DNA of 64,000 nucleotides from contig OX637401.1 of NCBI GenBank assembly GCA_951799425.1, positions 21,800,001 to 21,864,000 of the forward strand. The letters are read 5' to 3'. The notes under the pieces were generated by a model, which had not been told where the DNA came from, did no database searches, and worked only from the letters and a program-made list of their open reading frames with translations. This document shows, piece by piece, positions 37,538 through 63,395 of this stretch; position 1 is the first letter of the stretch; the number at the start of each line of letters is the position of its first letter. Source of the stretch: Ilex aquifolium. Lineage: Eukaryota; Streptophyta; Magnoliopsida; Aquifoliales; Aquifoliaceae. The position numbers were made by a program, and so were the translations under genes.

Positions 37538-40161
37538 ATGTCTGCCTCCTCCGGTGCTACCCGTTCCTCTGTTTCCCTATTAGGCGATCAGTCTGAGGAC
37601 ACTGATTTAGGGGACGTAGGTGATGAAATCGATAATTTTCCTGGTGTGGAGGCTGTAGAAGCCGAGGTCGGCACCGAGGAAACTCCCTCTACATCATCTC
37701 CCATGCCCCCCAGGCCTGACAAAGGCAAGGGCAAGGTGAGTGGAGTTGGGATTGAAGAAAAAGCCTCATATTTGGGGCTTGCCTTCAGGCATGCCCAGTC
37801 AGTTGGCTATAGTAGAGAGGTCCCTGGGTTAATGAGAGCTTATAAAGCTCGATACGGTTTTCCTCCTGGGGTTGAGCCCTGGTGCCTAGATAAATCCATT
37901 CTCTATGTAGAACAAGTGCGCCAGAGGGTCTGTTTCTTCCTGGCTGCCTTTGAGAACGGTCTTCGCTTTCCCCTGCACCCTTTTATTAAGGCTGTTCTGC
38001 AACACTTTAATGTATGCCCTTCCCAGCTTTCCCCTAACTTCTATGGCATTATGGTAGGCCTCTTAGTCATCTTCAAGAAGCATAAACTCGGGGTTCCTAG
38101 CATTTCTCTGCTTATGGAGCTTTTCAACGTCAAGCTGACCTCTTCCGAAGGTTTTCTATATATTTCTAAGCGAACTAATGCTAGGAAGATTATTACCGAC
38201 CTCCCATATTCTCATAAAGGATGGAAAAAACATTTCTTTTATATTGGGGGTACCAACTGGGAATACAATCCTGCGGATAAGACAGATACTCTTGGTATCC
38301 CTATGGCTTGGACTACCCCAGAAAACTTGCGTGAGTCTTCACTCGAGCTGACTGAGCCCTGATCTGGAATTTATGGGCCTCTTGCCTTTCTCTTACTTGC
38401 ATATTTTTTCTTTTTAGGTGGTCGTCTTGAGCTCAGCCCTGAAGATAAGAAGGTGTTAGTGAAGTTGGGGAAAATCAAGCCAAAGAGGTACGCTGATCTT
38501 ATTGAGTCTCGGAATCTGGTGAAGCTGGGTCTGAGTCCCCCATCGGCAACCTTAGCTATTCCAATATCTGTTATAGGAGCTGAAGAAGGTAATATCACTG
38601 TTACTTTCTTTCTTTCCCCCTTTCGTTTTCTTTTATACCTCCTGATTTCATTCAGATCTTCCAGGTCCTTCCACCATGAGGTCTACTCCTGAAGAGCTCA
38701 AGGCTAAGGTTGAGGAGCTGATGAAAGGTGGTAAATCCAGCAAGCGGAAGGCCCAGGCCGGCTCTGAGAGTGGACCAATCACCAGGGCTAAAATCCCAAG
38801 ATTGGAGATGCCTTCGCCCTCCTCATCTGCTAGAGAACCGGCTCCCATCATGGCACTGCCTTCCTCATCCAGCACTCCTCAAACTGCAGCCATCTCCACC
38901 CCTCCAGAGGCCCAGCCTGCATCAGCTCAAGTGGGAGGTCAGGCTTCCCCTTCCTCCTCTGAGGTCGAGAGAGCATTGGGATTAATCCCCGATCTCCTAC
39001 CCAGATCTTTTTCATACAGTGCTTCTGGGAAGATGATGGAGAAAGAGGGGAAATCCGAAGAGGAAGATGGAGACTCTTACTTCGACAACATGGATCTAGC
39101 TGTAGGAGCTGTTTCTTCTATTTTTTCTGAATCCGACGTCCTGAAGGCTGCTTCGGTGCCACTTGAGGACTCCATCAACTCAACTCTTCAGGGAACAGCT
39201 GCTGTGAGTACCTTACCAGCTCCATTTACCCTTGTTCAATAGCTTTACATAGTTTTGCTGATCTTCCTTTATCTCCCAGGCTGCCCTCCATGTGAAAGGT
39301 TTATTGCACCGGATCCGGTCTTACGAGCGTTCCGCTAAGGCTCTGAAGACGTATGAGGTCAAAGTTTCTGAGTTGTCCCTCGAAAACGAGGATCTCAGGG
39401 CTCAGGTGCAAAGCCTTAAGGAGCAAACAGTGAAGCAAGCCTCCGACCTCAAACATACCTTAACCGTCAAGGTCAGAGCTGAGGAAGGGAAAAAGAAAGC
39501 TCGAGATGAGCTACGGTTAGTTAAGGAGGATCTGCAGCTCAAGACTGAGGCGTGGACTAAGGCTAGTCAAGAGGCTTTTGACGCCAAGAACTCCCTTATG
39601 CAGTCAAGGCAAGATTATCTCACTCTTAGCGAAGCCAATGACAAACTCTGCGAGGAGCTCGAAGGGCAGAAAGACCTGGTTAAATAGAGGGATAGAGAGG
39701 TAGCCGAGCTGAAAGATGAGGCTACCACCTTGTGGGCTACTGGGTGGCTCGCCTTTAGGCGCAAGGCTATCAAAGCTTTTCCTGACCTCGACTTCAACTT
39801 CCCTATCCCCACCGAGGAAGAAATGGAAGAGTCTAGCTCTGATAATGAGGAAGATGTCTTGGTCCCATCAGCTGAAGCCTTGAGTCAAGACGTACCTGCC
39901 ACTGGGACTTCCGGAGCTCTTGCCGCAATTCCTGAGCTCCCAACTGCGATTCTTGAGCTCCCCACGACAGCTCCTGCTGTTCCTCTCATTACACCGTTTT
40001 CAGCTGACCTGGTGACTGAGGCCCTTGCTCAAAATTCGGAATCAACGGGAGCAGGGACCCTTGTGGCTGGCATCTCTGGAAGCTCTTCCCAACCTTCTGC
40101 TACTGAGGGCTCATCTGCCGAGCTGCGAGATCCTTCAATTACTCCTTCTTTAGATACTTAG
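37538..40161 (+). pseudogene. Antisense gene 1 of element A (4 exons, one nonsense codon)
   Basis: Exons 37538-38330, 38418-38588, 38656-39203 and 39280-40161 join in frame (2394 nt). The intron positions are the same as in element B, and exon 2 is exactly 171 nt in both. The product matches the element B protein along its length: a globular region with 'VCFFLAAFENGLRFPLHPFI' and 'CPSQLSPNFYG', a basic patch in exon 3, and a long coiled coil in exon 4. A TAG at 39685-39687 cuts the coiled coil. The domain resembles the 'putative gypsy-type transposase' family found in antisense ORFs of plant Tat elements; despite that name, no catalytic motif is visible. The downstream 40162-40260 looks like a plant 3' UTR. 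Confidence 0.8.
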
Positions 40162-40854: not shown

Positions 40855-41930
40855 ATGGTTGCTTCTGCTTCTTCTTTGTTCAAGGAACGCACTTCCTTTG
40901 GAATCGAATGGAAGTGGCACTGTCGCTACTTATCTCCTTCAACCTTAGAGTCCTCTGATTTAGAAGCCATCAAGAAACGGTTCTTTTCTGATCTTGATTT
41001 GCCTTTGCGAGTCCCTACTTCCGACGAGCCCTGCAACTACCTTCCTCGAGGGGAAATCTGCTTTTTTGAGGGTGCCATGGATATGGGACTTCGCCTTCCC
41101 ATTCATCCGGCTATATGACGAGTTCTTGCCTACTATGGCCTATGCCCTTCTCACCTTTCCCCACGAGGATGGGCTGCTATGGTGAGCTTCTTCCTGTTCT
41201 GGCGCCTATATGGCAGCGACAGGTTCCCCTTTGTTTCCGAGTTTTTGTACTTCTTCGAGATCGAGGAAGATGATGCCCCCTGCTTCAGCTTCTTTCGTTG
41301 GAGGCATTTTAATTTACCTCCTTTGGTTTTAGGCCTTCCCTCCAATCCTGAAGGATGGTCTAAACGCTTCTTTTTTGCTTCTGGGGAGTCTTGGCGGTCC
41401 ACTGAGGATCGTTGTCGTGAAGCTAGGATTCCACGGTCCTGGAAGAGCTTCTCTCATGTTGGTAGGTTCGAGCTGAGCTCTCTTGAATAGATGTTTTTCT
41501 TGAAGATTTATTCTTATTATATTCTTGTTGCTCAGGTCCCCCTGATCTGGATGTGCCCGAGATGATAAGCATTAATGAGTTGCTGCTCGTTGGGCCTAGG
41601 TCTTACTTTGAGTTGATGACGAGTGCAAACCTTTATTTGCTTGGGGCTGAGGCAACCGAATTTGAATTTTCCTCCGTTCCTTACTCTTCTTGGACCTCTT
41701 TCTCTGACTTTGACGAGGAAGGGGATTCTGACGAGGATGGGGACACTGGTGTGAGCTCAAAGAGGTGTAGGAGGGATGGTTCTTTCTCCCCTGATTCTAT
41801 GTCCACTATTTTCCTTACCCCAGTAGGTCAGAAACTTCTGGACTCACTCTACAAGGCTGAACAAGAAAGAGACGAGCTGAAGGAGGAGAATGCTCGTCTG
41901 AAGGAGGAAGTGGCCGAGCTGAAGTCATAG
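40855..41930 (+). pseudogene. Antisense gene 2 of element A (2 exons, one nonsense codon)
   Basis: Exon 1 (40855-41461, 607 nt, the same length as in element B) and exon 2 (41536-41930) join in frame to 333 codons, with a GT-AG intron of 74 bp. A TGA at 41116-41118 interrupts exon 1 right after 'GLRLPIHPAI'; the frame is otherwise open. The domain is a diverged version of that in antisense gene 1, and the C-terminus ends in a short acidic segment and a coiled coil ('EQERDELKEENARLKEEVAE'). No known function. It lies 694 nt downstream of gene 1 in the same direction. Confidence 0.78.
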
Positions 41931-42419
41931 CTTTAGAAGGATTAGGAGTCCTTCCTCCTTGTACTTCCTTTCTTTCTTTGAACGATGCCAAACTACGTCT
42001 CTATATATATTTTCTTGAATGCTCGTACTCTTGAATTTTTTGAATATCAGTTCTTTCTTTTTAGAATGTGCATGCCCATGTATGAGCTAAGGGGTGCATG
42101 TCCATGTATGAGCTGAGGGGGTCATTTCTTATGTGCTTATGGAGTTCATTCTAAATTCTGTAAATTTAGACACTGAGCTCTTCCAACACATTCCTCGCGT
42201 TCAGAACACGAACGTAGATGGAAAACAGAAGATCATGTCTGTACTGACATCCGCTGCACTAGACATGAAACTGAGAGATGACCTTTGTCGTTTGGAGAAG
42301 ATCAGGAACCACCGTGGTCTTCGTCAGTATTGGGGTTTTTGAGTGTGTGGGCAGTACACGAAGATTCCTGGTCGTGGGGAAAGACTGTTGGTGTCTCCAA
42401 GAAGAGACCAACTTGAATT

Positions 42420-42998
42420 TTATGAGCTTAGAAGCTTATCGTATGTATATGAGCTGAAGAGCTCATCTTGAATTTTTATAAGCCGAGAAGCTTATCGTGC
42501 TTTTATGAGCTGAAGAGCTCATCTTGAATTTTATTAGCTGAGAAGCTTATAGTGTTTTTATGAGCTGAAGAGCTCATCTTGAATTTTATAAGCTGAGAAG
42601 CTTATCGTTTGTATATGAGCTGAAGAGCTCATCTTGAATTTTATAAGCTGAGAAGCTTATCGTTTGTATATGAGCTGAAGAGCTCATCTTGAATTTTATA
42701 AGCTGAGAAGCTTATCGTGTTTTTATGAGCTGAAGAACTCATCTTGAATTTTATAAGCTGAGAAGCTTATCGTGTCTTTATGAGCTGAAGAGCTCATCTT
42801 GAATTTTAGAAGCTGAGAAGCTTATCGTTTGTATATCAGCTGAAGAGCTCATCTTGAATTTTATAAGCTGAGAAACTTATCGTGTTTTTATGAGCTGAAG
42901 AGCTCATCTTGAATTTTATAAGCTGAGAAGCTTATAGTGTTTTTATGAACTGAAGAGCTCATCTTGAATTTTTATAAGCTGAGAAGCTTATCGTTAAC
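42420..42998. repeat. Hairpin tandem array of element A (55-bp units)
   Basis: About ten units with a period of 55 bp (one of 56), measured from the recurring gagctgaagagctc. Each unit carries two dyads: tgagct/agctca around a 4-nt loop, and ataagct-gaga-agcttat. Some units have a damaged stem (for example near 42836 and 42876). The array lies between the converging 3' ends of gag-pol (43100, minus) and antisense gene 2 (41930, plus). Element B has the same array in the same place. Confidence 0.92.
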
Positions 42999-48590: not shown

Positions 48591-48632
48591 CAGTTACTGA
48601 AGAATCAGTATATTTGTAACAAGAACTGTCGT

Positions 48633-48649
48633 TCCCACAGACGGTGCCA
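48633..48649 (-). other. Element A primer-binding site
   Basis: On the minus strand tggcaccgtctgtggga starts 3 nt after the 5' LTR. It differs from the element B site (tggcgccgtctgtggga) at one base. The cognate tRNA is not assigned. Confidence 0.8.
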
Positions 48650-48652
48650 AAC

Positions 48653-49754: not shown

Positions 49755-50466
49755 TGATGATACCCAGAATAAAACTGGCACGTGCTCAGTAAGTGAGCTC
49801 AGCTCGGGAGCTCAGGCGAAAGAAGCTGAGCTCCCCTAGCCATGAGCAGAGCTCATCCAGTCAGCACTAAGAGCTCCTAGTCGAAGGCGCGAGAGAAGAA
49901 ATGCTAAGGGAACAACAAGACGACTTGGATACCCTTGTTAAGGAGGTAGAATCCAATCCTAGGCAGAAAACCCGTATTTAACCATGATCTCCTCCTAAAA
50001 TTAAGGAGGATCCCACAGGAGGAGGCAAAGATCTCTCCTTTTGAAGCCAGCCATAAGGAATTTAGGTAACTCCGGAATTGTGGATAAAGATAGGGCACGA
50101 TCCCTTCAATGTAGGATAGTCCCGTATTAGAGGTAAGTATGAGGCTATAAAAAGGAAGAGACAGCCCCCATCGCCGGGAGAGAGATTTTCTGAAACCCTA
50201 GTTCCCTGAGTATTCGACTGTAACACCTTCAATTCATCAATAAAGAGACAGGAGCAAGAGCCTCCATTAGAGAGTGGATTAGCCGAGCTCATCAGCCGGT
50301 GAACCACTATATTTCTATTGTATTTCACACATTACACACGACTAATTAGAGCTGTCATTCCCCACTTCACGAGCCTTGTAGCTCAGATGCCATATTAGTC
50401 CCCATGCAAACTGCTCACGCCAGTTAATCTGGTTCCTTGGCTCGTATCCGAAGGTTTACACCATCA
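49755..50466 (+). repeat. Element B 5' LTR
   Basis: Starts tgatgataccc and ends ...tttacaccatca. It contains a TATA box (50146-50154) and a polyadenylation hexamer aataaa at 50239-50244, so the transcript start (R) probably lies at about 50175-50185. The first 120 bp are dense in gagctc/agctca words. Confidence 0.93.
50146..50154 (+). promoter_or_regulatory. LTR TATA box, element B
   Basis: tataaaaag lies about 380 nt upstream of the gag ATG, with the poly(A) signal 90 nt further on as expected for a U3-R-U5 layout. It is duplicated in the 3' LTR at 63070-63078. Confidence 0.75.
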
Positions 50467-50469
50467 GTT

Positions 50470-50486
50470 TGGCGCCGTCTGTGGGA
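50470..50486 (+). other. Element B primer-binding site
   Basis: tggcgccgtctgtggga begins 3 nt after the LTR and is the form common in plant Ty3/gypsy elements. The tRNA is not assigned. Confidence 0.85.
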
Positions 50487-50528
50487 ACGACTGTTCCTGT
50501 TACAAGTAAGCTGATTCCTCAGTGACTG

Positions 50529-53500
50529 ATGGTAATAACTCGAAATATGAGCAGAAGCCAAACAAATCTACCTCGAATGCAAGATCAGCCGGAAACTGCC
50601 CACGGCAGGCAACCCGGGAACATCCAGGAGGCGAATTCCCTCATTAATAACGAGTTGGAGGCCCTGCGTCTCGTCAACCAACGTTTGCTAAAGGAAAATG
50701 AAGAGCTGTCAAAGCTCGTACAACACCCACAAGAGGCACCACCGGCCCATGAAGGCCAGAATAACCCCCCTCATAGGGAACCTCGATACTGGGACCCCCA
50801 TAGAGAGGTCAGCGAGGGGGGGGAAGGCAGCCAGGCCAGGGGATATGTCCCCTACGTACCCCCTGGTAATGGCCCTAAGGACGAAGTGCAAAGTCGGAAC
50901 GACAGGGGTGAGAGAGGTGGTTTCTTCCCTTATCCGCAAGACAGGAGAGAGCAGCACTGGGAGCAACGCTTCAAAGATTTCCAGCAAGAGCTCAGCCATA
51001 TGAAGGAGGCCGTAAAAAGTAAGGCCCCGGTTACAATGGATGTTTTGGTCCAGCAAACCGAATCCCCATTCACCACGGGGGTGCTACACTTCCCTCTCCC
51101 ACCAAAATTCAGGATGCCTCAAATGGAGGTCTTTGACGGATCGAAAGATCCCGTGGATCATCTCAACACTTACAAGAACCAGATGGAGCTACATGGGTAC
51201 CAGGATCCTGTACGATGCAGAGCTTTTGCTATCACGCTGAAAGGCTCCGCCTTAAACTGGTTTCATAGGCTCCCGCCAGCCTCGATCTCATCCTTTAAAG
51301 AACTCTCCATTGCTTTTGTCTCTCATTTCATAGGAGCCCGGATACACAGAAAGCCGAGCTACCACCTGCTGAATGTGAAGCAGGGTCCCCAGGAAAACCT
51401 GAGGACTTATGTCCAAAGATTTAACTCGGAGACATTGAAAGTAGACGTCCCGGATGAAAAATTCGCCATAACTGCTTTCATTGCAGGGTTGGGAGTGCAA
51501 TCAAAGGATTTGATGTTCTCCATATCAAAAAACCCTCAGGCAAGTATGGCTGAGGTGTTAGCCAAGGCAGAGAAATATATAAATGGTGAAGAGGCACTCC
51601 TTTCTAAGGTGGTCGGTACATCTTCACGAAAGGAAAAGGAAAAAGAAGAAAAGAGAAGGGACAGAAGCCCTAGGAAGGAAAAAGGACGAGAGAGGTCCCC
51701 AAGGAGGGACAGAGACCGCTCGCCAAAGAGGAGAGGAAATGTCAGAGATCGGCTGGGTCCCATGCAACCTGAACTACAACCCAGGTATGGGCCTCAGCGG
51801 TTTACCCCACTCACCGCTGCTGTGTCACAAGTACTGTATGAGGTCCAGAACGAGAAGTTTTTAAAATGGCCACCTAGGATGAAGGCAGACCCGGCAAAGA
51901 GGGACCCCACGAAGTACTGTGATTATCATCGAGATCATGGACACCACACTGATGACTGTATTCAATTGAAGAAGGAAATCGAGTTCTTGATCCAGCGAGG
52001 TCAGCTGCGTCGTTTTATAGCCAATGATAACCTGAACCGAGCTCTTCCGCCTCCGCCACCCCGACAGCAGGCACCTGCACCACACCAGCAGCCTCTAGGA
52101 GAAATCAGAGTGATATCTGGAGGTTTCGCAGGAGGTGGAGAGTCAAGCTCAGCTAGGAAGGCGCACCTCCGGCGGATCAGAGCCGAAGAAACTCTCGAAG
52201 TGCACGCTGTATCCAAGGCTCCACGCTTGGATACAGCTATCACTTTTTCAGATGCTGATTTAGAAGGGTGCCAATACCCCCATGATGATCCACTGGTGGT
52301 ACGAGCTGTGGTGGCAAACAGAACAGTTCATCGGGTTCTAATTGATAACGGGAGCTCGGCAGATATTATTTTCGCACCCGCGTTTGACAGGATGGACATA
52401 GGAAGACAAAAACTTGAGCCAGTAAGCACTCACTTGCTGGGATTCTCCGGGGAAAAGGTGCTCCCCCTGGGTTCAATCCAGCTCGTGCTCACCCTGGGGG
52501 ATCCACCTTGCCAAGCCACTACCACTGTCAGATTCCTAGTAGTCGATGCACCATCGGCGTACAACATCTTGCTTGGAAGGCCATCCCTAAATTCTATAAA
52601 GGCAATCCCATCTGCTTATCATTTAGTCGTGAAGTTCCCTACAGAAAATGGAATCGGAGTGGTCCGAGGAGACCAGCGCGTAGCACGGGAGTGCTACTTG
52701 GCTTCTGTAAAAAGGAAGGAGGTCGAGAACATCCAACTGGATGAGCTCGACATGAGAGATGAAATGGAGACAAGACCAATGCCATCGGAAGAGCTGGAAC
52801 CAGTTCAGCTTGATGAGAAATCAGAACACCTTGTTTATGTGGGTTCCAAACTAAACGCTGAGCTCAAAAGACTCCTCATCCAGTTCCTAAAAGAGAATAT
52901 AGGAGTGTTCGCTTGGAAGCAAGAAGACATGGAAGGAATTGATCCCTCGGTTATTACCCACAAGTTATGCGTAAACCCAACTTGCAAACCCATCAAACAG
53001 AAGAGGAGGAGCTTTGCTTATGAAAGGCAAAAAGCAATCAATGAGGAGGTCAGCAAACTCCTCCATGCCAAGGCTATCAGGGAGGTTCATTACCCCACTT
53101 GGTTAGCAAATGTAGTTCTCGTAAAGAAAACCAATGGGAAGTGGCGATTGTGCATCGACTTCACTGATCTCAATCGAGCATGCCCCAAAGACAGTTTTCC
53201 CTTACCTCGGATTGACCTAATAGTGGACGCCACTGCAGGGCACGAGCTCCTCAGTTTCATGGACGCTTTTTCAGGCTACAACCAGATCGGGATGGATCCC
53301 AGCGATCAGGAGAAGACCTCCTTTGTGACTGAACAGGGAACATATTGCTATCAGGTCATGCCCTTCGGATTGAAGAACGCCGGAGCCACTTACCAGCGGT
53401 TAGTAAATAAAATGTTCCAGAGGCAAATAGGAGCATCCATGGAGGTTTACATTGATGATATGCTAGTGAAGTCGCTGAAAGCAGAGCTCCACATCGAGCA

Positions 53501-56000
53501 CTTAGTTGAGTCATTCCGAATTCTACAGGAGTACAAAATGAAGCTAAACCCCGCGAAGTGCGCATTCGGGGTCTCGGCTGGAAAATTTCTGGGCTTTATA
53601 GTCAGCAGCAGAGGGATTGAGGCCAATCCAGAAAAGGTTAAAGCAATGGTGGAAATGAAGTCACCATCCAACACAAAAGAGGTGCAACGTTTGACAGGCA
53701 GGATAGCTGCACTTAGCCGTTTTGTGTCTAGGTCTAGCGATAAATGCCAGCCATTTTTTCAAGTCTTGAAGAAGGCATTCCACTGGGATGCCAAGTGTGA
53801 AGAAGCATTCGAAGACCTAAAGAGATATATGAGCTCTCCCCCTGTTCTGGTGAGCCCTCTAGAAGGGGAAATCCTCACCCTCTACCTAGTAGTTTCAGAT
53901 TTTTCAACAAGTGCAGCGCTAGTTAGGGAGCGAGACAGAGCTCAGCAACCAGTCTACTACTGTAGCAGAGCTCTGAGGGGGGCAGAGGAGAGATATCCAA
54001 GGATGGAAAAACTCGTTCTAGCTCTGGTTACAGCAGCTAGGAGACTTAGACCTTATTTCCAGGCTCATACTGTTGAGGTTCCAACAGATCAGCCAATGAA
54101 GCAAGTACTACACAAGCCGGAATCCTCAGGGAGGTTGGTTAAATGGGCCGTAGAGCTCAGCGAGTTTGATATCAGGTACAAGCCAAGAGCTGCCATCAAA
54201 GGGCAAATTTTGGCAGATTTTATTGCAGAATTCACAGCAGCAGCGCCTATGGAAACCACGGATTTAGTACCGGACCTTCCCATATGGAAGCTTTCAGTAG
54301 ATGGAGCTGCCAATGCTCAGGGAAGCGGTGCAGGAATGATCCTGACCTCCCCAGAAGGAATAGACGTCGAATATGCCCTCAGATTTGGGTTCAAAGCTTC
54401 AAATAATGAGGCAGAGTATGAAGCCGTCATCGCTGGGCTTAATCTTGCCTATTCTATGGAAGCAGAGCAGCTGGAGATCTGCAGTGATTCTCAACTGGTG
54501 GTGAAGCAGATAGAAGAGTGTTACGAGGCAAGAGGCGAGAAGATGGTCCTGTACCTCAAAAAGGTACGAGAACTAATGAAACAGTTTGTGCAGGTTAAGG
54601 TCAGACACGTGCCTAGAGTGGAGAACTCACGAGCAGATGCTCTGGCAAGGTTAGCAACTGCCTCGCAGGAGGATTTGGATAGGCTAATTCCAGTAGAGCA
54701 CCTTCCAAAGCCCTCGGTAAGCATCGAAGAAGAGGAAATTCTATCAATTGAAGCTCGGCCGAGCTGGATGGATCCCATCGTAGAGTACCTTCAGAATGAA
54801 ACTTTGCCAAATAATGCCAAGGAGGCATCCAAGCTAAGGGCCAGGTCAGCCAGATTTTCCCTGATGCAAGGGAAACTGTACAAGCATGGATTTTCAATGC
54901 CTCTCCTTAAGTGCGTAGGAGACGAAGATGCTAACTACATACTCAGAGAAGTACATGAGGGGATATGTGGCAACCACATAGGAGCTCGGGCCTTGGCAGG
55001 AAAAGTACTGAGGCAAGGATATTATTGGCCCACCATACTCACAAGCGCCACCGACTTAGTAAGAAAATGCAAAACTTGCCAAGAGCATGCTAATATGTCC
55101 CACTGTCCTCCCGAGCTCCTAACCTCGGTGGTAAGCCCATGGCCTTTTCAGCAGTGGGGGCTAGACATTCTGGGACCCCTACCCACCGGTGTGGGACAGT
55201 GCAAGTTTGCCATCGTAGGAGTGGATTACTTTACTAAATGGGCAGAGGTCGAACCTTTGGCAACGATCACAGAGCAAAAAGTTCAAAACTTCGTTTGGAA
55301 GTCGATAGTTTGCAGGTTTGGAGTTCCCAGAGCGTTCGTATCTGACAATGGAAAGCAGTTTGATAATTCAAAGTTCAAAAGTTTTTGTGCCGAGCTCGGA
55401 ATCAAGAACTATTTCTCAGCTCCTGCCCATCCCCAGTCTAATGGGCAGGCGGAGGTCACAATAAGAACCATAAAGTCAGCTTTGAAGACCAAGCTAGAAA
55501 ACCTGAAAGGCAAATGGGTGGAGTACATTCCGGAGGTATTGTGGGCCTACAGGACCACCGCCAGATCGGCGACTCAGGAAACCCCCTTTGCTTTGGCCTT
55601 TGGGACCGAGGCAGTGGCCCCAGTGGAGATAGGGCTCCAATCACCAAGGGTGGAGTTTGCAGATCCCGAGCACAATGATGAGTCTCTCTTGCTAAACCTC
55701 GATCTCTTGGATGAAAAGAGGGACAGAGCTCTGCACCGTGTCCGTACTTACCAAAGGAAAACGGCAAGGTATTATGACAGGAGGGTAAGACACAGAAGTT
55801 TCAAGGTTGGAGATTTGGTGCTTAGGAGGCTTCTGCTTGCGAGAAAGGATCCCACGCATGGGAAATTGGGACCCAATTGGGAAGGGCCCTATATCGTGTC
55901 AAAGATAATCAGACCAGGGAATTACGAGTTGCAAACAGAGGAAGGAAAGGTTCTACATCACTCGTGGAATGCCGAGCACCTTAAGAAGTTTTTTCAGTAA
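50529..56000 (+). CDS. Element B gag-pol polyprotein, 1823 codons, intact
   Basis: Approximate order by residue: retrotransposon gag domain 199-320 ('VDHLNTYKNQMELHGYQDPV'); Arg/Ser/Lys-rich stretch 360-405; Cys/His knuckle near 462 ('CDYHRDHGHHTDDC'); aspartic protease near 602 ('VLIDNGSSAD'); RT with 'FSGYNQIGMD' and the 'YIDD' box near 972; native RNase H about 1115-1225; second, acquired RNase H from 1253 ('SVDGAANAQGSGAGMI', 'SNNEAEYEAVIAGL'); integrase with an HHCC finger about 1474-1520 and DDE residues near 1543, 1604 and 1640. No chromodomain follows; the tail has the common 'GPNWEGPYIV' segment. Two RNase H domains mark the Tat lineage. The ATG lies 63 nt after the LTR. No frame break separates gag from pol, so a single polyprotein must be cut by its protease. 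Every catalytic motif appears complete. Confidence 0.95.
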   Translation: MVITRNMSRSQTNLPRMQDQPETAHGRQPGNIQEANSLINNELEALRLVNQRLLKENEELSKLVQHPQEAPPAHEGQNNPPHREPRYWDPHREVSEGGEGSQARGYVPYVPPGNGPKDEVQSRNDRGERGGFFPYPQDRREQHWEQRFKDFQQELSHMKEAVKSKAPVTMDVLVQQTESPFTTGVLHFPLPPKFRMPQMEVFDGSKDPVDHLNTYKNQMELHGYQDPVRCRAFAITLKGSALNWFHRLPPASISSFKELSIAFVSHFIGARIHRKPSYHLLNVKQGPQENLRTYVQRFNSETLKVDVPDEKFAITAFIAGLGVQSKDLMFSISKNPQASMAEVLAKAEKYINGEEALLSKVVGTSSRKEKEKEEKRRDRSPRKEKGRERSPRRDRDRSPKRRGNVRDRLGPMQPELQPRYGPQRFTPLTAAVSQVLYEVQNEKFLKWPPRMKADPAKRDPTKYCDYHRDHGHHTDDCIQLKKEIEFLIQRGQLRRFIANDNLNRALPPPPPRQQAPAPHQQPLGEIRVISGGFAGGGESSSARKAHLRRIRAEETLEVHAVSKAPRLDTAITFSDADLEGCQYPHDDPLVVRAVVANRTVHRVLIDNGSSADIIFAPAFDRMDIGRQKLEPVSTHLLGFSGEKVLPLGSIQLVLTLGDPPCQATTTVRFLVVDAPSAYNILLGRPSLNSIKAIPSAYHLVVKFPTENGIGVVRGDQRVARECYLASVKRKEVENIQLDELDMRDEMETRPMPSEELEPVQLDEKSEHLVYVGSKLNAELKRLLIQFLKENIGVFAWKQEDMEGIDPSVITHKLCVNPTCKPIKQKRRSFAYERQKAINEEVSKLLHAKAIREVHYPTWLANVVLVKKTNGKWRLCIDFTDLNRACPKDSFPLPRIDLIVDATAGHELLSFMDAFSGYNQIGMDPSDQEKTSFVTEQGTYCYQVMPFGLKNAGATYQRLVNKMFQRQIGASMEVYIDDMLVKSLKAELHIEHLVESFRILQEYKMKLNPAKCAFGVSAGKFLGFIVSSRGIEANPEKVKAMVEMKSPSNTKEVQRLTGRIAALSRFVSRSSDKCQPFFQVLKKAFHWDAKCEEAFEDLKRYMSSPPVLVSPLEGEILTLYLVVSDFSTSAALVRERDRAQQPVYYCSRALRGAEERYPRMEKLVLALVTAARRLRPYFQAHTVEVPTDQPMKQVLHKPESSGRLVKWAVELSEFDIRYKPRAAIKGQILADFIAEFTAAAPMETTDLVPDLPIWKLSVDGAANAQGSGAGMILTSPEGIDVEYALRFGFKASNNEAEYEAVIAGLNLAYSMEAEQLEICSDSQLVVKQIEECYEARGEKMVLYLKKVRELMKQFVQVKVRHVPRVENSRADALARLATASQEDLDRLIPVEHLPKPSVSIEEEEILSIEARPSWMDPIVEYLQNETLPNNAKEASKLRARSARFSLMQGKLYKHGFSMPLLKCVGDEDANYILREVHEGICGNHIGARALAGKVLRQGYYWPTILTSATDLVRKCKTCQEHANMSHCPPELLTSVVSPWPFQQWGLDILGPLPTGVGQCKFAIVGVDYFTKWAEVEPLATITEQKVQNFVWKSIVCRFGVPRAFVSDNGKQFDNSKFKSFCAELGIKNYFSAPAHPQSNGQAEVTIRTIKSALKTKLENLKGKWVEYIPEVLWAYRTTARSATQETPFALAFGTEAVAPVEIGLQSPRVEFADPEHNDESLLLNLDLLDEKRDRALHRVRTYQRKTARYYDRRVRHRSFKVGDLVLRRLLLARKDPTHGKLGPNWEGPYIVSKIIRPGNYELQTEEGKVLHHSWNAEHLKKFFQ

Positions 56001-56080
56001 GTGTTACTTGTAATAGAACTACTTTTAAATAAGAAAGAGCAAGCCTTTTATTCACCCTCCAATGGTCTCCAAAGTAGCAA

Positions 56081-56749
56081 GATGAGCTCTTCAGCTCATA
56101 AACAAACGATAAGCTTCAAAGCTTATAAATGCAAAGATGAGCTCTTCAGCTCATAAACAAACGATAAGCTTCAAAGCTTATAAATGCAAGATGAGCTCTT
56201 CAGCTCATAAACAAACGATAAGCTTCAAAGCTTATAAAGGCAAGATGAGCTCTTCAGCTCATAAACAAACGATAAGCTTCAAAGCTTATAAATGCAAGAT
56301 GAGCTCTTCAGCTCATAAACAAACGATAAGCTTCAAAGCTTATAAATGCAAGATGAGCTCTTCAGCTCATAAACAAACGATGAGCTTCAAAGCTTATAAA
56401 TGCAAGATGAGCTCTTCAGCTCATAAACAAACGATAAGCTTCAAAGCTTATAAATGCAAGATGAGCTCTTCAGCTCATAAACAAACGATAAGCTTTAAAG
56501 CTTATAAATCAAAGATGAGCTCTTCGGCTCATAAAAACCCGATAAGCTTCAAAGCTTATAAATTTAAGATGAGCTCTTCAGCTCATAAAAACCCGATAAG
56601 CTTCAAAGCTTATAAATTTAAGATGAGCTCTTCAGCTCATAAAAACACGATAAGCTCCAAAGCTTATAAAAGAAAGATGGGCTCCTCAGCTCATAACTAC
56701 AGGATAAGCCTCAAAAGCTTATAAACAAAAGACGAGCTCTTCAGCTCGT
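56081..56749. repeat. Hairpin tandem array of element B (54-bp units)
   Basis: About twelve units, period 54 bp. Each has tgagct-cttc-agctca and ataagct-tcaa-agcttat, two inverted repeats with 4-nt loops separated by about 16 nt. It starts ~80 bp after the gag-pol stop and ends ~390 bp before the end of antisense gene 2. Compared on the same strand, the element A units keep both stems, while the loop of the second is gaga in A and ttga in B. Because 54 is a multiple of three, one frame stays open for 195 codons; this is not considered a gene. Confidence 0.93.
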
Positions 56750-56750
56750 A

Positions 56751-56829
56751 CAAAATTCAAGGCTGAACGCTTCTTGGAGACACCAACAGTCAAATTCAAG
56801 GCTGAACGCTTCTTGGAGACACCAATGGT
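56751..56829. repeat. 39-40 bp tandem duplication
   Basis: Two copies of a unit containing 'ttcaaggctgaacgcttctt' followed by 'ggagacaccaa' lie directly beyond the hairpin array. A related single stretch occurs in element A near 42393-42415 (inverted). Confidence 0.8.
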
Positions 56830-57138
56830 CCTCCCCCCAGGACCAGATACCCTTGTGCACTGCCTACACACCCAAAGACCTCGAAAGATCCAGAACAACT
56901 GAGAACACCTATGAGGTCAGATGAGAAGTAAGGTCAGAGCAGACATGATCTTCTGTTCTCCATCTACGTTCGTGTTTCGAACAAGAAGAGTAAGCTGAAA
57001 TAACCTAACAGAATTCGAGATGAATGAAAAGTCTGGCATTCGAAATATCCGACAGTGCAAATATTCAGAAAAATACAAAAAGAGTCATAGTCTGATATCG
57101 CTTAAGAAAAGAAAGAACGATACAAGGAAACAAAGATT
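56830..57138. other. Spacer / probable 3' UTR of antisense gene 2, element B
   Basis: Non-coding, partly similar to the element A spacer 42000-42400 (inverted). It would form the 3' UTR of antisense gene 2 and face the end of gag-pol. No clear terminator motif. Confidence 0.5.
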
Positions 57139-58227
57139 CTAGTCTTTCTTAAGTTCAGATTTCAGCTCAGCAACCTCTCCCTTCAGGCTAGCATTCTCTT
57201 TCTTCAGCTCATCCCTTTCCTGCTCAGCCTTTTGAAGCGAGTTAAGGAGCTTCTGACCAACAGAGGTAAGGAAGATGGTGGACAGAGAGTCAGGAGAAGG
57301 GGAATCGTCCCTCTTACGCTCCCTCGAACTCGTGACGGTGTTTCCGTCCTTGTTAGAATCCCCATCCTCATCAGAATCAGAGAAAGAGGTCCAGGAAGAG
57401 TAAGGAATAGTGGAAAACTCAAACTCAGTAGCCTCAGCCCCAAGCAAATAGAGGTTTGCGCTCGTCATCAGCTCGGAATAAGTCTTAGACTCCACAAGCA
57501 ACAACTCGTTGATATTCACCATCCCTGGTAAATCCAGGTCAGGTGGATCTGCACAGCAAGGACATAATCAGAGCATATTTTTAAAAGGAAAGTACTCAAA
57601 AGAGCTATGCTCGAGCTTACCAATACGAGAGAAGCTCTTCCAGGACCGAGGAATCCTGGCTTTATGACAGCGATCCTCAGGAGACCTCCAAGCCTCTCCA
57701 GAAGCAAAGAAGAAACGCTCAGACCACCCTCCAGGGTTGGAGGGAAGATCTAGAACCAGAGGGCGTAAATTGAAATCCCTCCAACGGAAGAAACTGAAGC
57801 AGGGGGCATTATCTTCCTCAATCTCAAAGAAGTATAGAAACTCAGAGACAAAGGGGAACCTGCCAAGAGCACGAAGGCGGCAGAACAAGAAGAAGCTTAC
57901 CATAGCACCCCATCCTCGTGGAGAAAGGCGAGAAGGGCACAGGCCATAATAGGCAAGAACTCGCCCAATGGCCGGATGAATGGGAAGGCGAAGTCCCATG
58001 TCCATAGCACCTTCAAAGAAACAGACTTCCCCTCGGGGAAGGTAGTTACAAGGCTCGTCGGAGGAAGAAACTCGCATAGGCAAGTCAAGATCAGGGAAAA
58101 ACCGTTTCTTGATGTCCGTCAAATCAGAAGATTCAAGTAATGAAGGGGACAAATAGCGACAATGCCACTCCCATTCGATCCCAAAGGAGGATCGTTCCTG
58201 GAACAAAGAAGAAGTGGATGCGGCCAT
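57139..58227 (-). CDS. Antisense gene 2 of element B (2 exons, 338 aa)
   Basis: Exon 1 (58227-57621, 607 nt) and exon 2 (57548-57139, 410 nt) join in frame across a 72-bp GT-AG intron. A globular domain at about residues 40-190 includes 'EVCFFEGAMDMGLRLPIHPA', 'LCPSRLSPRGWGAMVSF' and 'GGWSERFFFASGEAW'. These align with 'RVCFFLAAFDNGLRFPLHPF', 'VCPSQISPNFYGVMVGL' and 'KHWKEHFFFVGGTNW' of antisense gene 1, so the two are paralogues. The C-terminal ~40 residues form an acidic/charged coiled coil. No catalytic motif, signal peptide or membrane segment is evident. It is transcribed against gag-pol and ends facing the hairpin array. Function unknown; a role as element-encoded regulator or structural partner is only speculation. 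Confidence 0.85.
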
Positions 58228-58352
58228 CGAAAATGCTGGTAAGGAAAAAGATGCAAGAAATCAAGAAGAAAGTCAAGAATAGGTCATGCACTTGAGAGCT
58301 TTTCAGGAAACTAAGAGCCAAGAAAGAGGGAATCAAGTGGCCTGTTCAGTTT

Positions 58353-58365
58353 CTTAATTAATAAA
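58353..58365 (-). promoter_or_regulatory. Candidate core promoter of antisense gene 2, element B
   Basis: The complement reads tttattaattaag, identical to 40672-40684 in element A. Upstream (higher coordinates, to about 58455) are four imperfect copies of 'ccataaccg' / 'ccatatccgc' spaced 23-30 bp apart. They resemble MYB-type AACCG sites in repeated arrangement, where A has a single clear copy. Confidence 0.55.
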
Positions 58366-58459
58366 GGTAGCAGCGGTTATGGAAAGTGGCTACGGTTATG
58401 GAAAGTGGTTGCGGATATGGAAAGGGGAAAGACGTGGCGGTTATGGGAAGCGGTTGAGA

Positions 58460-59388
58460 GAAAAACGCGGGAAAAGAAACCAGATACTACCCCTCCTATT
58501 TGCACTCAAAACAACCAACGAAAATTCTGACCCCACCAAGCAATATACCCTCCATATTTGAGCTCAGCCCAGTAAAAAACAGAGCACTTGTATACCAAAT
58601 CTTTGAGGTGTGAAAGCTCAAAGCCTCGCTTAAGGAAGGCCTAAAGCACTCCGCAAAGCAAGATGTGGGGAAAAGAGAGGTGAAACGTAGAAGAAGGTCC
58701 TCTACTCTTAGAGAAATGGAGCAACGAAATTTATTATCTGATCTAGAGAAGGGTTCGTTTAAAGAATCATGAAGCTCAGACAGAACCCATAAATTCAGAC
58801 AAAAGAACCACGAAGCTCAGAAATAAACTTTAAGATCAGACAACAGAGCCAAATAGCTCAGAAAGCGCTCTTCAGTTCATACGGAAAAGACAAAGAGTTC
58901 AGAGCTCTCAAGTTCGAAAAAAGAACCGTCTTAGCTCAGCAAGAATTTATAAGCTCACAAGCACGAGCTATGCAACTCTGAAGGAGCACGCCAGTTCAGA
59001 ATATAGAGTTGAGCAGCTTAGGACGAAGAAGAATAAGGAGTGGACCCCTAAGGTACCAACTACTGAGCTTAAAAGGCTCGGGAAAAGCAGTAGAACATAA
59101 CACCAAGTCCCCCGTGCTCTTCAAACCTAGTAATTTTGCTTCAAGAAGTGCACAGCACCCCTCAAAGCAAAAGGGGGCGAAGGGAGTATACAAAGTTGAG
59201 TGCATGCAAAGCCAGGCAAATAAGTGCACCGTTGCGGTTCGAGTCGAAGTCGAATCAAAATCCAAGGATACATATATGCTGAAATTAAAAGATATGTATA
59301 TATATACTAAGCCAGCAAAAGAGCAATAAATGAAGTCAAAGACTACATCACGAAAAATTCTTTACAGAGAAATTACAACTAAAAAGAC
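58460..59388. other. Spacer between antisense genes 1 and 2 of element B
   Basis: About 0.9 kb, non-coding, with frequent 'agctcag' and 'gagctc' words every 20-40 bp (58565-58990). It contains the 3' UTR of gene 1 and the upstream region of gene 2. The matching element A spacer (40162-40670) is shorter and lacks most of these words. Confidence 0.6.
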
Positions 59389-62018
59389 CTAGGATTCTGG
59401 AAGAAGAGGGATTGAAGGATCTCGCAGCTCAGTAGAGGAGTCCCTTGCTTCTGTTGCTGAGGGCTCACCTTGAACAAGGGCTTCAGACACCACGACAGCT
59501 GAAAAGGATGCAGAAACAGGAACAGCAGGAGCTGCAGCAGAAAGCTCAGGAATCGTTGTTGAAGGCTCAGGGAGCGCGATAATAGCTTCTGAGGTCCCAG
59601 GGGCGGGTGTGTCTTGACTTAAGGCAGCAGCTGGGGAGTCTGAGATATCCCCCTCATTGTCAGTGCCAGATTCTTCCATTTCCTCCTCAGTGGGGATGGG
59701 GAGATTGAAATCAAGGTCTGGATATGCTTTGGTAGCCTTACGCCTAAAAGCAAGCCATCCAGTAGCCCATGAAGTGGTGGCCTCATCCTTAAGCTCGGCA
59801 AACTCTTTGTCTCTCTCTTGAACCAAATATTTCTGCTCCTCGAGCTCCTCACAGAGTTTGCCGTTAGCCTCACTGAGGGCAAAATAATCTTGATTAACCT
59901 GGATGAGCTCCCTCTTAGCGTCAAAGGCCTCCTGGTTAGCCTTGGACCACGCCTCAACCTTAGCCTGCAGGTCTTCCTTAACCGCCTTCAGCTCATCCCG
60001 AGCCTTCTTTTCCCCTTCCTCAGCTCTGGCCTTGACTGTCAGTGTGTGTTTGAGATCGGAGGCTTGCTTCACCATCCGTTCGTTGAGACCCTCCATCTGC
60101 ACTTTAAGGCTCTCCACCTGAGCTCTGAGGTCTTCATTCTCAAGAGACAATTCTGAAACCTTGGTCTTGTATTTCTTTAAGACCTGGAAAGAGCTTTCTT
60201 GAGAGCGAACTCGGTGCAGCAGACCTTTCGTATGAAGGGCAGCCTGAGAATATAAGGAAAGTACAGCAAATAATGTCAGACCACGAAATACAAACAAGCA
60301 AAGAGAGACAGGGGGTTAACACTCACAGTAGCAGCTCCCTGAAGGGCCAAAGAGATGGATTCCTCCAGGGGCATGGAAGCGGCCTTCAGGACATCAGACT
60401 CAGAAAAGATAGAGGAAAGAGCTCCAGCAGCAAGGTCTATATTGTCAAAAAAGGAGTCCTCATCTTCCTCCTCAGACTTTCTCTCTTTTTCAGTCACCTT
60501 CCCAGAAGCACTGTATTCGAACTTCCCGGGTTGAAGGTCGGGAACCAATTCCAAAGCCTCCTTGACCTCAGAAGAAGAAGGGGAAGCCTGATCCCTCTCC
60601 TGAGCAGACGCCAACTTAGAAGGGGCCACTGGAGGGGAAGAAAAGGTGGTTGCAGCTTGTGGAGTTCCAGAGGAGGAGGGCGGAGCCTTGCTTGGAACCT
60701 GTCCTTCAGCTGCAGAGGGGGGAGAAGATGCTTCCAGCCGGGGGATCTTAGCTCGAATGTTTGGGCCGCCCCCAGAGCCTACCCGAGCTTTGCGTTTCCT
60801 AGACCTGCCACCCACCATCAGCTCTGCAATTTTGGCCTGAAGCTCTTCTGGATCAACCTTCATGGTAGAAGGACCTGGAAGATCTGGAAGAAGTAGGAAA
60901 ATGTAAAGAAAAAGAGAAAGGAAGGAAAGATAATGAAGAAAGGAAAAAGAATGGCGTTGAAATCACCTTCGTCAGCCCCTAAAACAGACAAGGGGATCGC
61001 TAAAGTCGCCACAGGAAGACTCAGACCTAGCTGTACCAGGTTCCTTGACTCAATCAAGTCGGCGTACTTCTCTGGCTTGATCTTCTCCAACTTTGCTAGC
61101 AACTTTTTGTCCTCAGGGCTGAGCTCGTAGCGTTCACCTAAGAGGAAGAAAGTATGCAAATAAGAAAAAGATAAGAGGCCGGCAGGTTTCAGATCAGAGC
61201 TCGAACTCAAGTAAGGACTCACGTAAATTATCTGGTTCAGCCCAGGCCGTAGGGATACCGAGTGTGTCTGTCTTATCAGCAGGGTTGTACTCCCAATTGG
61301 TGCCCCCGACAAAGAAGAAATGTTCCTTCCAGTGTTTATGGGAGGTCGGAATGTCAGAGATGAGCTGCCTAACACTGGCACGCTTGGAGGCATACAAGAA
61401 GCCTCCGGAGGTCGGTTTTACATTGAAGAGCTCTAAGAACAAAGGAATGCTAGGAATCCCAAGTTTATGCTTCTTAAACAGGACTAACAGACCAACCATG
61501 ACGCCATAGAAGTTGGGGGAGATCTGGGAAGGGCACACATGAAAATGTTGCAGAACAGCCTTGATGAAGGGATGCAAGGGAAAGCGAAGGCCGTTGTCAA
61601 AAGCAGCAAGAAAGAAGCAGACTCTGTTATGAACTTTTTCTACATAAAAAACGGATCGATCTGGGCACCAGGGTTCGACCCCAGGGGGAAAACCATACCG
61701 AACTTTATAAGACTTCATTAGCCTAGGGGCCTCTTTACTGCAGCCCACAGATTCGGCATGCCTAAAGGCAAGCCCTAGATACGAGGTTTTCTCCTCCACC
61801 CCGACTCCACTTATCTTAGCTTTGCCTTTGTCAGGTCTGGGGGGCAGGGAAGATGAGGTGGAGGGAGGCTCCTCGGCGTAGACCTCAGCCTCTACAGCCT
61901 CTACACCCGGAAAATTATCAATCTCATCACCAACTTCCCCTAAATCCGTATCTTCTCCGGCTGACCTAGATCCTAGAAGTGAAACAGAGGAGCGAGTGGC
62001 TTCAGAAGAAGCAGACAT
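59389..62018 (-). CDS. Antisense gene 1 of element B (4 exons, 792 aa)
   Basis: Exons 62018-61223, 61137-60967, 60883-60327 and 60243-59389 join in frame (2379 nt). All introns are GT-AG and 76-87 nt long, at the same positions as in element A. An alternative acceptor 9 nt downstream for exon 3 is also in frame. Parts: acidic N-terminus (1-60); globular domain about 100-245 shared with antisense gene 2 and resembling the 'putative gypsy-type transposase' family of plant antisense ORFs; a basic, NLS-like 'GRSRKRKAR' in exon 3; Ser/Pro-rich linker; long coiled coil about 520-680 ('VSELSLENEDLRAQVESLKV'); acidic tail. No nuclease or polymerase motif. The ATG was chosen because it matches the ATG in element A, although the frame stays open upstream to 62411. 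Confidence 0.87.
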
Positions 62019-62678
62019 GATAGGGAGAGAAAAAGGAAGATGGAAAGAGCGATAGAGCAAAGGGGGATTAGTCAGGCACTCTCTAATGACCCGGGGATCA
62101 ACACAGTGGCTCCCAACAGCAAGGATATGAACTACAGAACCCCAATCCACGAAGTGGTGAAGTGGGGCTAGACAATGGTCACGATTCCAAAAATAAAAGA
62201 ACCGAAAAGCCCAAAAATGCAATAACCACCTCGAACTCGAGGGATCCAGAGAAAAAAAAAAAAAAAAAGGGAAGAAATAAGGGCAAAGGACGTACCTAAC
62301 CCAGGGATAGTGGCAAACAGGAACTGGGAACGAAATCGGAAAAGGAGGCGTCGCAAGTCTTCGAAACGAGGTCCGAAAATTCGATTTCAGGCAAGAAAAT
62401 AGAAAAACCAAGGCAAGGAGGACTGGAATCGCAGAGAGAGCGGAGACGAAGGGCAGTAAAGAAGATGAACAGTGCGAAGAAGCAGTTTAGATAGCCGTTT
62501 TAAGCATTTAAAGCCTGGGAGACATGGGCTGAGACGTGCGCGGGAATCGAGGAAAGTCATGATGGCTATAAAACCGTCAGAAATCCTACAGCCACGTGCT
62601 AGCCACACGCACGTTTAACTCGTCTTGTACAAGTCATCCCCTGCCTGAGCTAACTCAAGGCAAGGGCTGGGGGGCAAC
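62019..62678 (-). promoter_or_regulatory. 5' region of antisense gene 1, element B
   Basis: Between the gene 1 ATG and the 3' LTR. A TATA-like ctttaaatg (minus strand, 62505-62513) and the adjacent 'cccgcgcacgtctcagccca' match element A. The leader of ~460 nt would be mostly non-coding. The polypurine tract occupies the last ~15 bases. Confidence 0.5.
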
Positions 62679-63390
62679 TGATGATACCCAGAATAAAACT
62701 GGCACGTGCTCAGTAAGTGAGCTCAGCTCGGGAGCTCAGGCGAAAGAAGCTGAGCTCCCCTAGCCATGAGCAGAGCTCATCCAGTCAGCACTAAGAGCTC
62801 CTAGTCGAAGGCGCGAGAGAAGAAATGCTAAGGGAACAACAAGACGACTTGGATACCCTTGTTAAGGAGGTAGAATCCAATCCTAGGCAGAAAACCCGTA
62901 TTTAACCATGATCTCCTCCTAAAATTAAGGAGGATCCCACAGGAGGAGGCAAAGATCTCTCCTTTTGAAGCCAGCCATAAGGAATTTAGGTAACTCCGGA
63001 ATTGTGGATAAAGATAGGGCACGATCCCTTCAATGTAGGATAGTCTCGTATTAGAGGTAAGTATGAGGCTATAAAAAGGAAGAGACAGCCCCCATCGCCG
63101 GGAGAGAGATTTTCTGAAACCCTAGTTCCCTGAGTATTCGACTGTAACACCTTCAATTCATCAATAAAGAGACAGGAGCAAGAGCCTCCATTAGAGAGTG
63201 GATTAGCCGAGCTCATCAGCCGGTGAACCACTATATTTCTATTGTATTTCACACATTACACACGACTAATTAGAGCTGTCATTCCCCACTTCACGAGCCT
63301 TGTAGCTCAGATGCCATATTAGTCCCCATGCAAACTGCTCACGCCAGTTAATCTGGTTCCTTGGCTCGTATCCGAAGGTTTACACCATCA
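62679..63390 (+). repeat. Element B 3' LTR
   Basis: 712 bp, identical to the 5' LTR except for one c/t difference seen by eye. It is followed by the aaaac target duplication. Confidence 0.95.
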
Positions 63391-63395
63391 AAAAC

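Follow-up and report, generated by a model that had tools for sequence, protein, structure and literature searches.

A Retand-type retrotransposon of Ilex aquifolium carries two paralogous antisense genes with predicted introns and over-uses a lineage-specific short word

Results

Two antisense genes in an intact element

We analyzed a 64,000-nucleotide stretch of the Ilex aquifolium genome (contig OX637401.1 of assembly GCA_951799425.1, positions 21,800,001 to 21,864,000), referred to here as the window. It carries two neighboring complete long terminal repeat (LTR) elements, A and B, which lie in opposite orientation about 0.37 kb apart. Our subject is the region of element B between pol and the 3' LTR, where a 54-bp tandem array is followed by gene 2 and then gene 1, both antisense to gag-pol. 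See Table 1 for the coordinates of all features. A preliminary description of the window had proposed an intact element carrying two multi-exon genes opposite gag-pol, with one shared domain in both products and a nuclear localization signal (NLS)-like patch in the larger one, and our analysis bears out each of these points. The gag-pol frame of B is open, the 5' and 3' LTRs differ by 1 mismatch in 712, and the insertion is flanked by a 5-bp target duplication. The LTRs of A are 98.6% alike.

A Pfam search of B gag-pol, made on four pieces that were each searched separately, gave the order gag, reverse transcriptase (RVT_1), RNase H (RT_RNaseH), a second RNase H (RVT_3/RNase_H), and integrase (rve). 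A second RNase H (aRH) between RNase H and integrase is the arrangement of both Ogre and Retand elements (PMC6317226) and agrees with a place of B in the Retand lineage of Tat Ty3/gypsy elements. B also has the long region between pol and the 3' LTR, with an antisense PF04195 open reading frame (ORF) and often tandem arrays, by which Retand is recognized (PMC11963269). By structure and domain, element B is a young full-length Retand-type (Tat, Ty3/gypsy) insertion.

The predicted product of gene 1 is 792 aa long and is encoded by four exons; that of gene 2 is 338 aa long and is encoded by two. All four predicted introns are GT-AG, and it is from sequence that splicing of both genes is predicted. 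Coordinates, product lengths, and motifs are as first described, with VCFF, GLR.P.HP, CPS..SP, and W..(H/R)FFF..G..W in the same order in both products. The shared domain is PF04195 (Transposase_28, TRP28), which scored 36.0 bits in gene 1 and 38.8 bits in gene 2 of B (cut-off 26.2); the partial gene 2 frame of A reached 19.7 bits, under the cut-off. At E up to 10, all four members of the exon-1 protein alignment matched PF04195. The NLS-like patch, RKRKAR, lies near residue 351 of the gene 1 product. Coiled-coil-like stretches were found near residues 528–560 of gene 1 and 307–338 of gene 2 by a simple heptad score, and coiled-coil Pfam matches for the two products fall below their cut-offs.

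The exon-1 proteins had no match to the plant mobile domain (PF10536) and none to DUF1985, the domain of VANC proteins, at E up to 10, a range in which HMMER filters drop most matches above ~0.1; the other exons had no DUF1985 match at E up to 1. Two scans of viral contigs and one scan of bacterial and archaeal genomes yielded no confirmed relatives. A sequence search of the PDB gave four weak matches (E 0.024 to 0.34), which fell on a putative hydrolase and on a tRNA deaminase-like protein that is inactive; we took them as chance.

Table 1. Features of elements A and B in window coordinates
Feature	Position	Strand	Remarks
Element A	36139-49387	-	strand of gag-pol; target duplication TTAAT
Element A gene 1	37538..40161	+	exons 37538-38330, 38418-38588, 38656-39203, 39280-40161; 1 internal stop
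Element A gene 2	40855..41945	+	exons 40855-41461, 41536-41945; 3 internal stops
Element A array	42401..42994		55-bp units, same kind of dyads as in B
Element B	49755-63390	+	strand of gag-pol; target duplication AAAAC
5' LTR of B	49755..50466	+	712 bp, TG...CA ends; AAAAC target duplication at 49750-49754
gag-pol open frame of B	50526..56000	+	stop to stop, 1824 aa
Array of B	56077..56747	.	54-bp units, 12.4 copies; dyads ATGAGCT-N4-AGCTCAT and ATAAGCTT-N2-AAGCTTAT per unit
Gene 2 exon 2	57139..57548	-	short coiled-coil-like stretch at end
Gene 2 exon 1	57621..58227	-	PF04195 domain, then phase-1 intron 57549-57620
Gene 1-gene 2 intergenic region	58228..59388	-	presumed gene 2 promoter
E2F-like TTCCCGC, gene 2	58467..58473	-	~240 bp upstream of gene 2 ATG
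Gene 1 exon 4	59389..60243	-	coiled-coil-like region
Gene 1 exon 3	60327..60883	-	basic NLS-like patch RKRKAR
Gene 1 exon 2	60967..61137	-	
Gene 1 exon 1	61223..62018	-	PF04195 domain, then phase-1 intron 61138-61222
TATA-like box TTTAAAT	62506..62512	-	presumed gene 1 promoter; TAAAT kept in 6/6 aligned loci
E2F-like TTCCCGC, gene 1	62540..62546	-	just upstream of TATA-like box; invariant in 6/6 aligned loci
3' LTR of B	62679..63390	+	AAAAC target duplication (5 bp) at 63391-63395

Selection on both genes

Element A has both genes at matching places, with matching exon boundaries and GT-AG kept at all four introns. We compared A and B by the Nei-Gojobori method, excluding codon pairs with a stop in A. 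The ratio of nonsynonymous to synonymous substitution rates (dN/dS) was 0.14 for gene 1 (95% interval 0.10–0.18, 777 codon pairs), 0.11 for gene 2 (0.07–0.16, 335 codon pairs), and 0.063 for a piece of gag-pol (0.05–0.08, 1115 codon pairs); these values are approximate, as dS of 0.9–1.2 is near saturation, and are still far below 1. Neither gene overlaps gag-pol, so the constraint on them is their own. Judged by dN/dS and the splice signals kept in A, gene 1 and gene 2 are two real, selected proteins. The internal stops in its antisense genes mark A as decayed, and B is open.

Distribution in the host genome

In the host assembly (800 Mb, 103 contigs), we found at least 150 PF04195 matches above the cut-off, which were all of those scored among 5837 candidates. 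Among the matches listed, the gene 2 domain had at least 150 at 92–100% identity and the gene 1 domain had 145 at 87–100%. A stop fell inside the exon-1 match in 10/150 for gene 2 and 3/145 for gene 1, again among the matches listed, which run best-first, so that intact copies are favored. Eighty-eight of the 145 listed gene 1 matches have at least 96% identity, and for 82 of these the list also holds a gene 2 match further downstream in the same orientation, at a distance of 3.5–3.8 kb in all pairs except one (81 of 82). The partners of the other six may lie beyond the matches listed. Gene 2 is thus present in other members of the family, and the proposal of a gene pair passes the check that its absence from all of them would have failed.

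We also fetched 25 loci of 10 kb, which were chosen for different PF04195 matches and are not a random sample. Five have both genes (L009, L011, L012, L014, and L028). Thirteen have gene 1 only (L010, L013, L015–L018, and L020–L026), with integrase 0.8–1.5 kb beyond gene 1 and no gene 2 match between the two; their integrase is 74–84% like that of B in twelve, with a short 68% piece in L010. A further locus, L019, has gene 1 only and no pol within the stretch. The remaining six (L027 and L029–L033) form a distant lineage with one PF04195 frame each, in which integrase is mostly 52–58% like that of B in five loci and no pol was found in L032. Repeats of 42 bp lie near the antisense frames of this lineage, around 3390–3750 in L027 and L029–L031 and around 6300–6570 in L033. 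If coding, they would make 14-residue steps, perhaps a repeated coiled coil.

An intron very likely older than the paralogue split

The exon-1 products of gene 1 and gene 2 aligned in BLASTP at 35% identity over 130 aa, with E 1e-25 in a single comparison, and a profile-profile comparison of the two domains, with small profiles, gave a probability of 99.6 and E 1.6e-23 over 142 columns. Both agree with the presence of PF04195 in each product that the genes are paralogous and share one domain. Behind the domain, the first gene 1 intron and the only gene 2 intron interrupt the coding sequence in phase 1, at positions that agree to within one alignment column. A phase-1 GT donor stands at the matching place in four of four loci of the distant lineage (L027, L029, L031, and L032), with a matching AG acceptor in all of them except L031. 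Because position and phase agree in gene 1, gene 2, and the distant lineage, it is very likely that the shared intron predates the split of the paralogues. The distant lineage has one gene and shares the intron position, and therefore the intron-bearing antisense gene appears to be old.

The preliminary description had also proposed that the gene pair arose by duplication inside this element, and this we cannot support. In an unrooted tree, gene 2 and L027 fall apart from a clade of gene 1 sequences (27 rows, some of them fragments) with support of 100/99. Gene 1, gene 2, and L027 are roughly equidistant in it; L027, the sole row of the distant lineage, fills half of the columns. These distances would make the duplication about as old as the lineage split here, or would bring gene 2 in from elsewhere. 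Furthermore, gene 2 is absent from the related one-gene families. Compared with B (57139–63390) in 250-base windows, L009, L012, and L014 are mosaic elements: they are 43–73% alike over most of gene 1, 75–84% alike in the LTR and promoter, and 88–96% alike in gene 2 and the DNA just before it. Likeness between two families is thus much greater for the gene 2 block than for gene 1, and therefore the two blocks were probably exchanged separately between families. A local duplication explains these data no better than an old duplication followed by loss, or than entry of gene 2 through recombination.

Presumed promoters and E2F-like sites

Outside the LTR, ~500 bp before the ATG of gene 1, a block with GATTCCCGCGCA and a TATA-like box is conserved in all six aligned loci. 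TTCCCGC, which we take to match the plant E2F consensus WTTSSCSS, occurs exactly twice in A and twice in B, once upstream of each antisense gene on its coding strand and nowhere else in either element. Two such sites per 13 kb is about the chance number, and the placement is the notable feature. The gene 1 site is present in all seven two-gene loci and in 12 of 14 gene-1-only loci (not L015 or L018), the gene 2 site in five of seven two-gene loci (not L012 or L028), and a single site in two of the six distant loci. There is none in 36 kb of flank. This suggests that the antisense genes may be expressed in dividing cells. A splice-donor-like AGGTACG block at 62291–62297 is also invariant in the six aligned gene 1 upstream regions, and it is possible that it marks an intron in the 5' untranslated region of gene 1.

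Each lineage over-uses its own short word

With the arrays set aside, no six-base word is more over-represented in non-coding DNA of A and B than AGCTCA (= TGAGCT), and it ranks first or among the first seven words in all 13 gene 1-lineage loci tested (13 of 19 others; arrays included). TGAGCT/AGCTCA occurs 7 times in the LTR of B and 8 times in that of A (0.70 and 0.48 expected), with five of the seven in the B 3' LTR clustered at 62718–62779, near the LTR start. The region between gene 1 and gene 2 has 9 copies in B and 3 in A (1.05 and 0.46 expected), and the tandem array is also enriched. Whole loci hold 65 copies in A and 64 in B (12.5 and 13.6 expected), with CTCGCC at expectation; the 36-kb flank holds 16 (10.3 expected). 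Across A, B, and five gene 1-lineage loci, TGAGCT counts were 30–65 (6.6–13.6 expected) and CTCGCC counts 2–5 (1.5–4.7 expected). The distant lineage over-uses CTCGCC, often as GCTCGCCCA, with 12–23 copies (1.7–3.6 expected) in six of six loci.

We then scored words that are enriched jointly in two separate compartments, using seven element sets, four flank pairs, and 100 shuffles. AGCTCA was the top word in B, A, and L012 (0/100 shuffles each) and the second in L022 (2.56) after the overlapping CTGAGC (2.60, 1/100). Among the distant loci, CGCCCA was top in L027 and CTCGCC in L031 (0/100 each), and CTCGCC was second in L032 (2.39, above the null maximum) after GGCGCC (2.44, 0/100). Three flank controls were ordinary (15, 29, and 52 of 100). 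One distant locus, L030, has a 51-bp array (L030:5543–5867) dominated by GACAGC/TGGACA, with GACAGC as its top word, as if the motif were changing within the distant lineage.

Dyads in the tandem arrays

The 54-bp unit of B contains two perfect inverted repeats with arms of at least 7 (0/3000 shuffles) and the 55-bp unit of A two with arms of at least 6 (21/3000). The 41-bp units of one-gene families are weaker, with arms of 5 in L024 (133/3000). The units of A and B can be read as GAGC-N6-GCTC plus AAGC-N6-GCTT, and one-gene arrays (L013, L020, L024, and L025) have GAAC-N6-GTTC in place of the latter. TGAGCT-N4-AGCTCA was found in five of seven two-gene loci, in none of 14 gene-1-only loci, and in none of six distant loci; the fetched two-gene loci break off within the array position or shortly past it and are partial views for these counts. 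Such dyads are not clearly seen in the distant-lineage arrays. Searching the genome with 24 bases taken from the two-gene unit gave 5656 occurrences, and with their reversed control 0. We considered an RNA hairpin as the reason for the dyads and rejected it, since the 2-nt gap of GAACTT-NN-AAGTTC argues for DNA instead (no fold was computed).

Surroundings of the elements

By eye, the rest of the window shows open frames resembling a hAT-type transposase (13310–14632), decayed pieces of a Ty1/copia-like polyprotein (21695–25325), and a likely host gene with an F-box and phloem protein 2-like reading (26402–28817).

Discussion

Antisense ORFs have been named in Silene Retand, maize Grande, and rice RIRE2 (PMC11963269, PMC7264820). 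A survey by Vicient (2025) reports antisense coding regions in all 63 Retand clusters, TRP28 in all but two of them, and 104 antisense ORFs, of which 57 of at least 600 nt carry TRP28, and it predicts DNA binding for this domain (PMC11963269). A 2020 review reports nuclear location of the Grande antisense protein and calls for a search for antisense and spliced transcripts (PMC7264820). The genes described here resemble these ORFs in their place between pol and the 3' LTR, their antisense direction, their PF04195 domain, and the tandem arrays beside pol (PMC11963269). The available text of the survey is silent on shared motifs and on elements with a pair of TRP28 genes, and the word "introns" occurs 0 times in it (PMC11963269). 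Our searches of the openly accessible literature found nothing closer to paired antisense TRP28 genes. Unlike the published Retand ORFs, the elements studied here have two paralogous PF04195 genes each, a phase-1 intron common to the paralogues and the distant lineage, and, in the array, the LTR, and the inter-gene region, an over-used word that is not the same in two lineages. New here are the distinct short words that two lineages over-use in their non-coding DNA (TGAGCT/AGCTCA and CTCGCC) and the placement of the E2F-like sites of A and B, one upstream of gene 1 and one upstream of gene 2.

HBZ, the antisense gene of human T-cell leukemia virus type 1 (HTLV-1), has a spliced form and a leucine zipper. 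Our genes differ from it in being two and in having presumed promoters outside the LTR, and the likeness is one of description. Like HBZ, which is named in the Retand survey (PMC11963269), they are antisense and near the 3' LTR and would be nuclear regulators; an HTLV antisense promoter is placed in the 3' LTR (PMC7264820). Ogre elements, another Tat lineage, also carry an extra ORF, and unlike here its domain is the plant mobile domain PF10536 (PMC6317226).

We tentatively favor a model, to which we give slightly less than an even chance, in which the gene products are nuclear, dimeric PF04195 regulators that bind words of their own element and control transcription or silencing of their own family. 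The region of B from pol to the 3' LTR would be a regulatory module, from which two paralogous PF04195 proteins would be made by way of their own antisense promoters and spliced transcripts. Retrotransposition would spare the introns, because their splice signals cannot be read on the genomic RNA, which corresponds to the other strand. Both proteins would be nuclear, with the basic patches serving nuclear entry, and would dimerize via their C-terminal coiled coils. The TRP28 domain would bind short words in the LTR, inter-gene region, and array of its own element (TGAGCT/AGCTCA, as dyads in the array), and the outcome would be control of the family's own transcription or silencing, possibly VANC-like anti-silencing. 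Expression, splicing, dimerization, word reading by these proteins, and the regulatory outcome are all inferred from the DNA itself.

Several observations weigh against such a model. The word has no clear excess upstream of gene 1 (1 copy against 0.28 and 0.37 expected) and a mild one in coding sequence, both in gag-pol (8 in B, 13/200 shuffles, and 12 in A, 0/200, each against 4.5) and in gene 1 (7 and 8 against 3.2 and 3.1). TGAGCT runs at 0.9 to 2.3 times expectation in the distant loci, and the upper end of this range is a difficulty. Top word scores in single windows (22.0 in A and 29.5 in B) are not exceptional, as the score of A falls within the range of 31 overlapping host-flank windows (up to 26.1) and two of the copia controls, which were four 3.7-kb loci centered on coding sequence, score 26.2 and 28.2 (for CAAGAA in L036 and L037). 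In the joint test, one of the four flank pairs also reached 0/100, via a CCACCA repeat, and the near-gene compartment of L027 falls in the open frame that precedes the domain, so that it could itself be coding. The first window used for the distant lineage, 2.2 kb beyond the open frame, had CTCGCC words in the top ten in three of five loci (L029, L031, and L033, not L027 or L030); whole loci were counted after that, and the window was then shifted to just upstream of the domain. Word positions are partly kept, at 4/8 between B and A (16% for all words) and 1/7 between B and L022 (22% for all words). Dyad arm lengths were set per unit after inspection, the dyads of the 41-bp unit of L022 are not significant (848/3000 shuffles), and the 6-bp spacing is not significant after allowing for the choice of spacing. 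Only PF04195 was matched in Pfam by the exon-1 proteins, and structure prediction of the exon-1 domains from four-row alignments gave no usable fold (mean predicted local distance difference test scores of 40.4 and 43.5). Finally, slippage could have multiplied the words, or a host factor could be what uses them.

This last point leads to the strongest rival, in which the words are host transcription factor sites or slippage products and the TRP28 proteins do something else. Arrays turn over fast and spread short words along, single-window enrichment is not unusual in this genome, and the E2F-like sites hint that host factors read the region. However, the LTR and inter-gene region of B share the word yet have no self-match of at least 150 bp, and the word differs between TRP28-gene lineages within the same host. 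We regard this explanation as somewhat unlikely.

In VANDAL transposons, silencing is lifted by VANC proteins, which recognize short motifs arranged as tandem repeats in the non-coding DNA (PMC5735166, PMC10398659). The proposed likeness is that of an element-encoded protein reading short, tandem-repeated, family-specific motifs in its own non-coding DNA, as in Arabidopsis VANDAL (PMC5735166, PMC10398659). What we found is of this type, namely, a short motif that is in excess in the tandem repeats and other non-coding DNA of the element and differs between related families, with exceptions and weak controls. VANDALs are DNA transposons whose VANC carries DUF1985, unlike the TRP28 proteins, which are known here from sequence alone. 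As these have no DUF1985 match, the likeness would be one of design, not of membership, and VANC seems the closest working model for them. A 2026 paper on LTR elements of sunflower and Arabidopsis also takes VANC as a model for element-encoded methylation control and reports a local CG decrease in Retand; in its available text, "antisense" and "TRP28" occur 0 times (PMC12844716). By analogy, spliced antisense TRP28 proteins of Retand, switched on in dividing cells via E2F-like sites, might bind lineage-specific words in the LTR, promoter, and array and lift silencing, and in two-gene families the second paralogue might have adopted the array's second dyad type (AAGC-N6-GCTT, where one-gene families have GAAC-N6-GTTC). 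We consider this fuller version unlikely, though worth stating.

A role after reverse transcription, for example in nuclear import or integration of cDNA, with the words unrelated to the proteins, is raised by a review in the form of pre-integration complex and retrovirus-like accessory roles (PMC7264820). The NLS-like patches fit such a role. It leaves unexplained why one word occurs in both the LTR and the inter-gene region and why the word differs between lineages, and we think it unlikely. The same review raises a role for the antisense RNA in place of protein, for example as double-stranded RNA with the genomic RNA (PMC7264820). Against this stand dN/dS values of 0.14 and 0.11, the kept splice signals, and the few stops in exon-1 matches (10/150 for gene 2 and 3/145 for gene 1 among the matches listed, intact copies favored), which make it very improbable. 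Steinbauerova et al. are said to have suggested that part of such antisense ORFs stem from an inserted mobile element. A mere passenger status of both genes, for example as a DNA transposon that had inserted into an ancestral element, without a role for the element, would suit the Pfam name (Transposase_28) and is scarcely credible given the selection on both genes, which already made it unlikely, their occurrence in several families and two lineages here, and the presence of TRP28 in all but two of 63 Retand clusters (PMC11963269).

Retand elements have long been known to carry antisense genes, to which no function is assigned. By the evidence above, a large clade within a single genome has them as two selected, intron-bearing paralogues. 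Under the model of nuclear, word-binding regulators, the TRP28 protein of this lineage is expected to recognize TGAGCT/AGCTCA dyads, and its counterpart in the distant lineage is expected to recognize GCTCGCC. If the VANC-like reading is true, it would mean protein-based anti-silencing in an LTR retrotransposon, arisen apart from VANDAL. More generally, if the model is true, a widespread class of plant retrotransposons would carry sequence-specific self-regulation, which would bear on why families amplify and how the host silences them.

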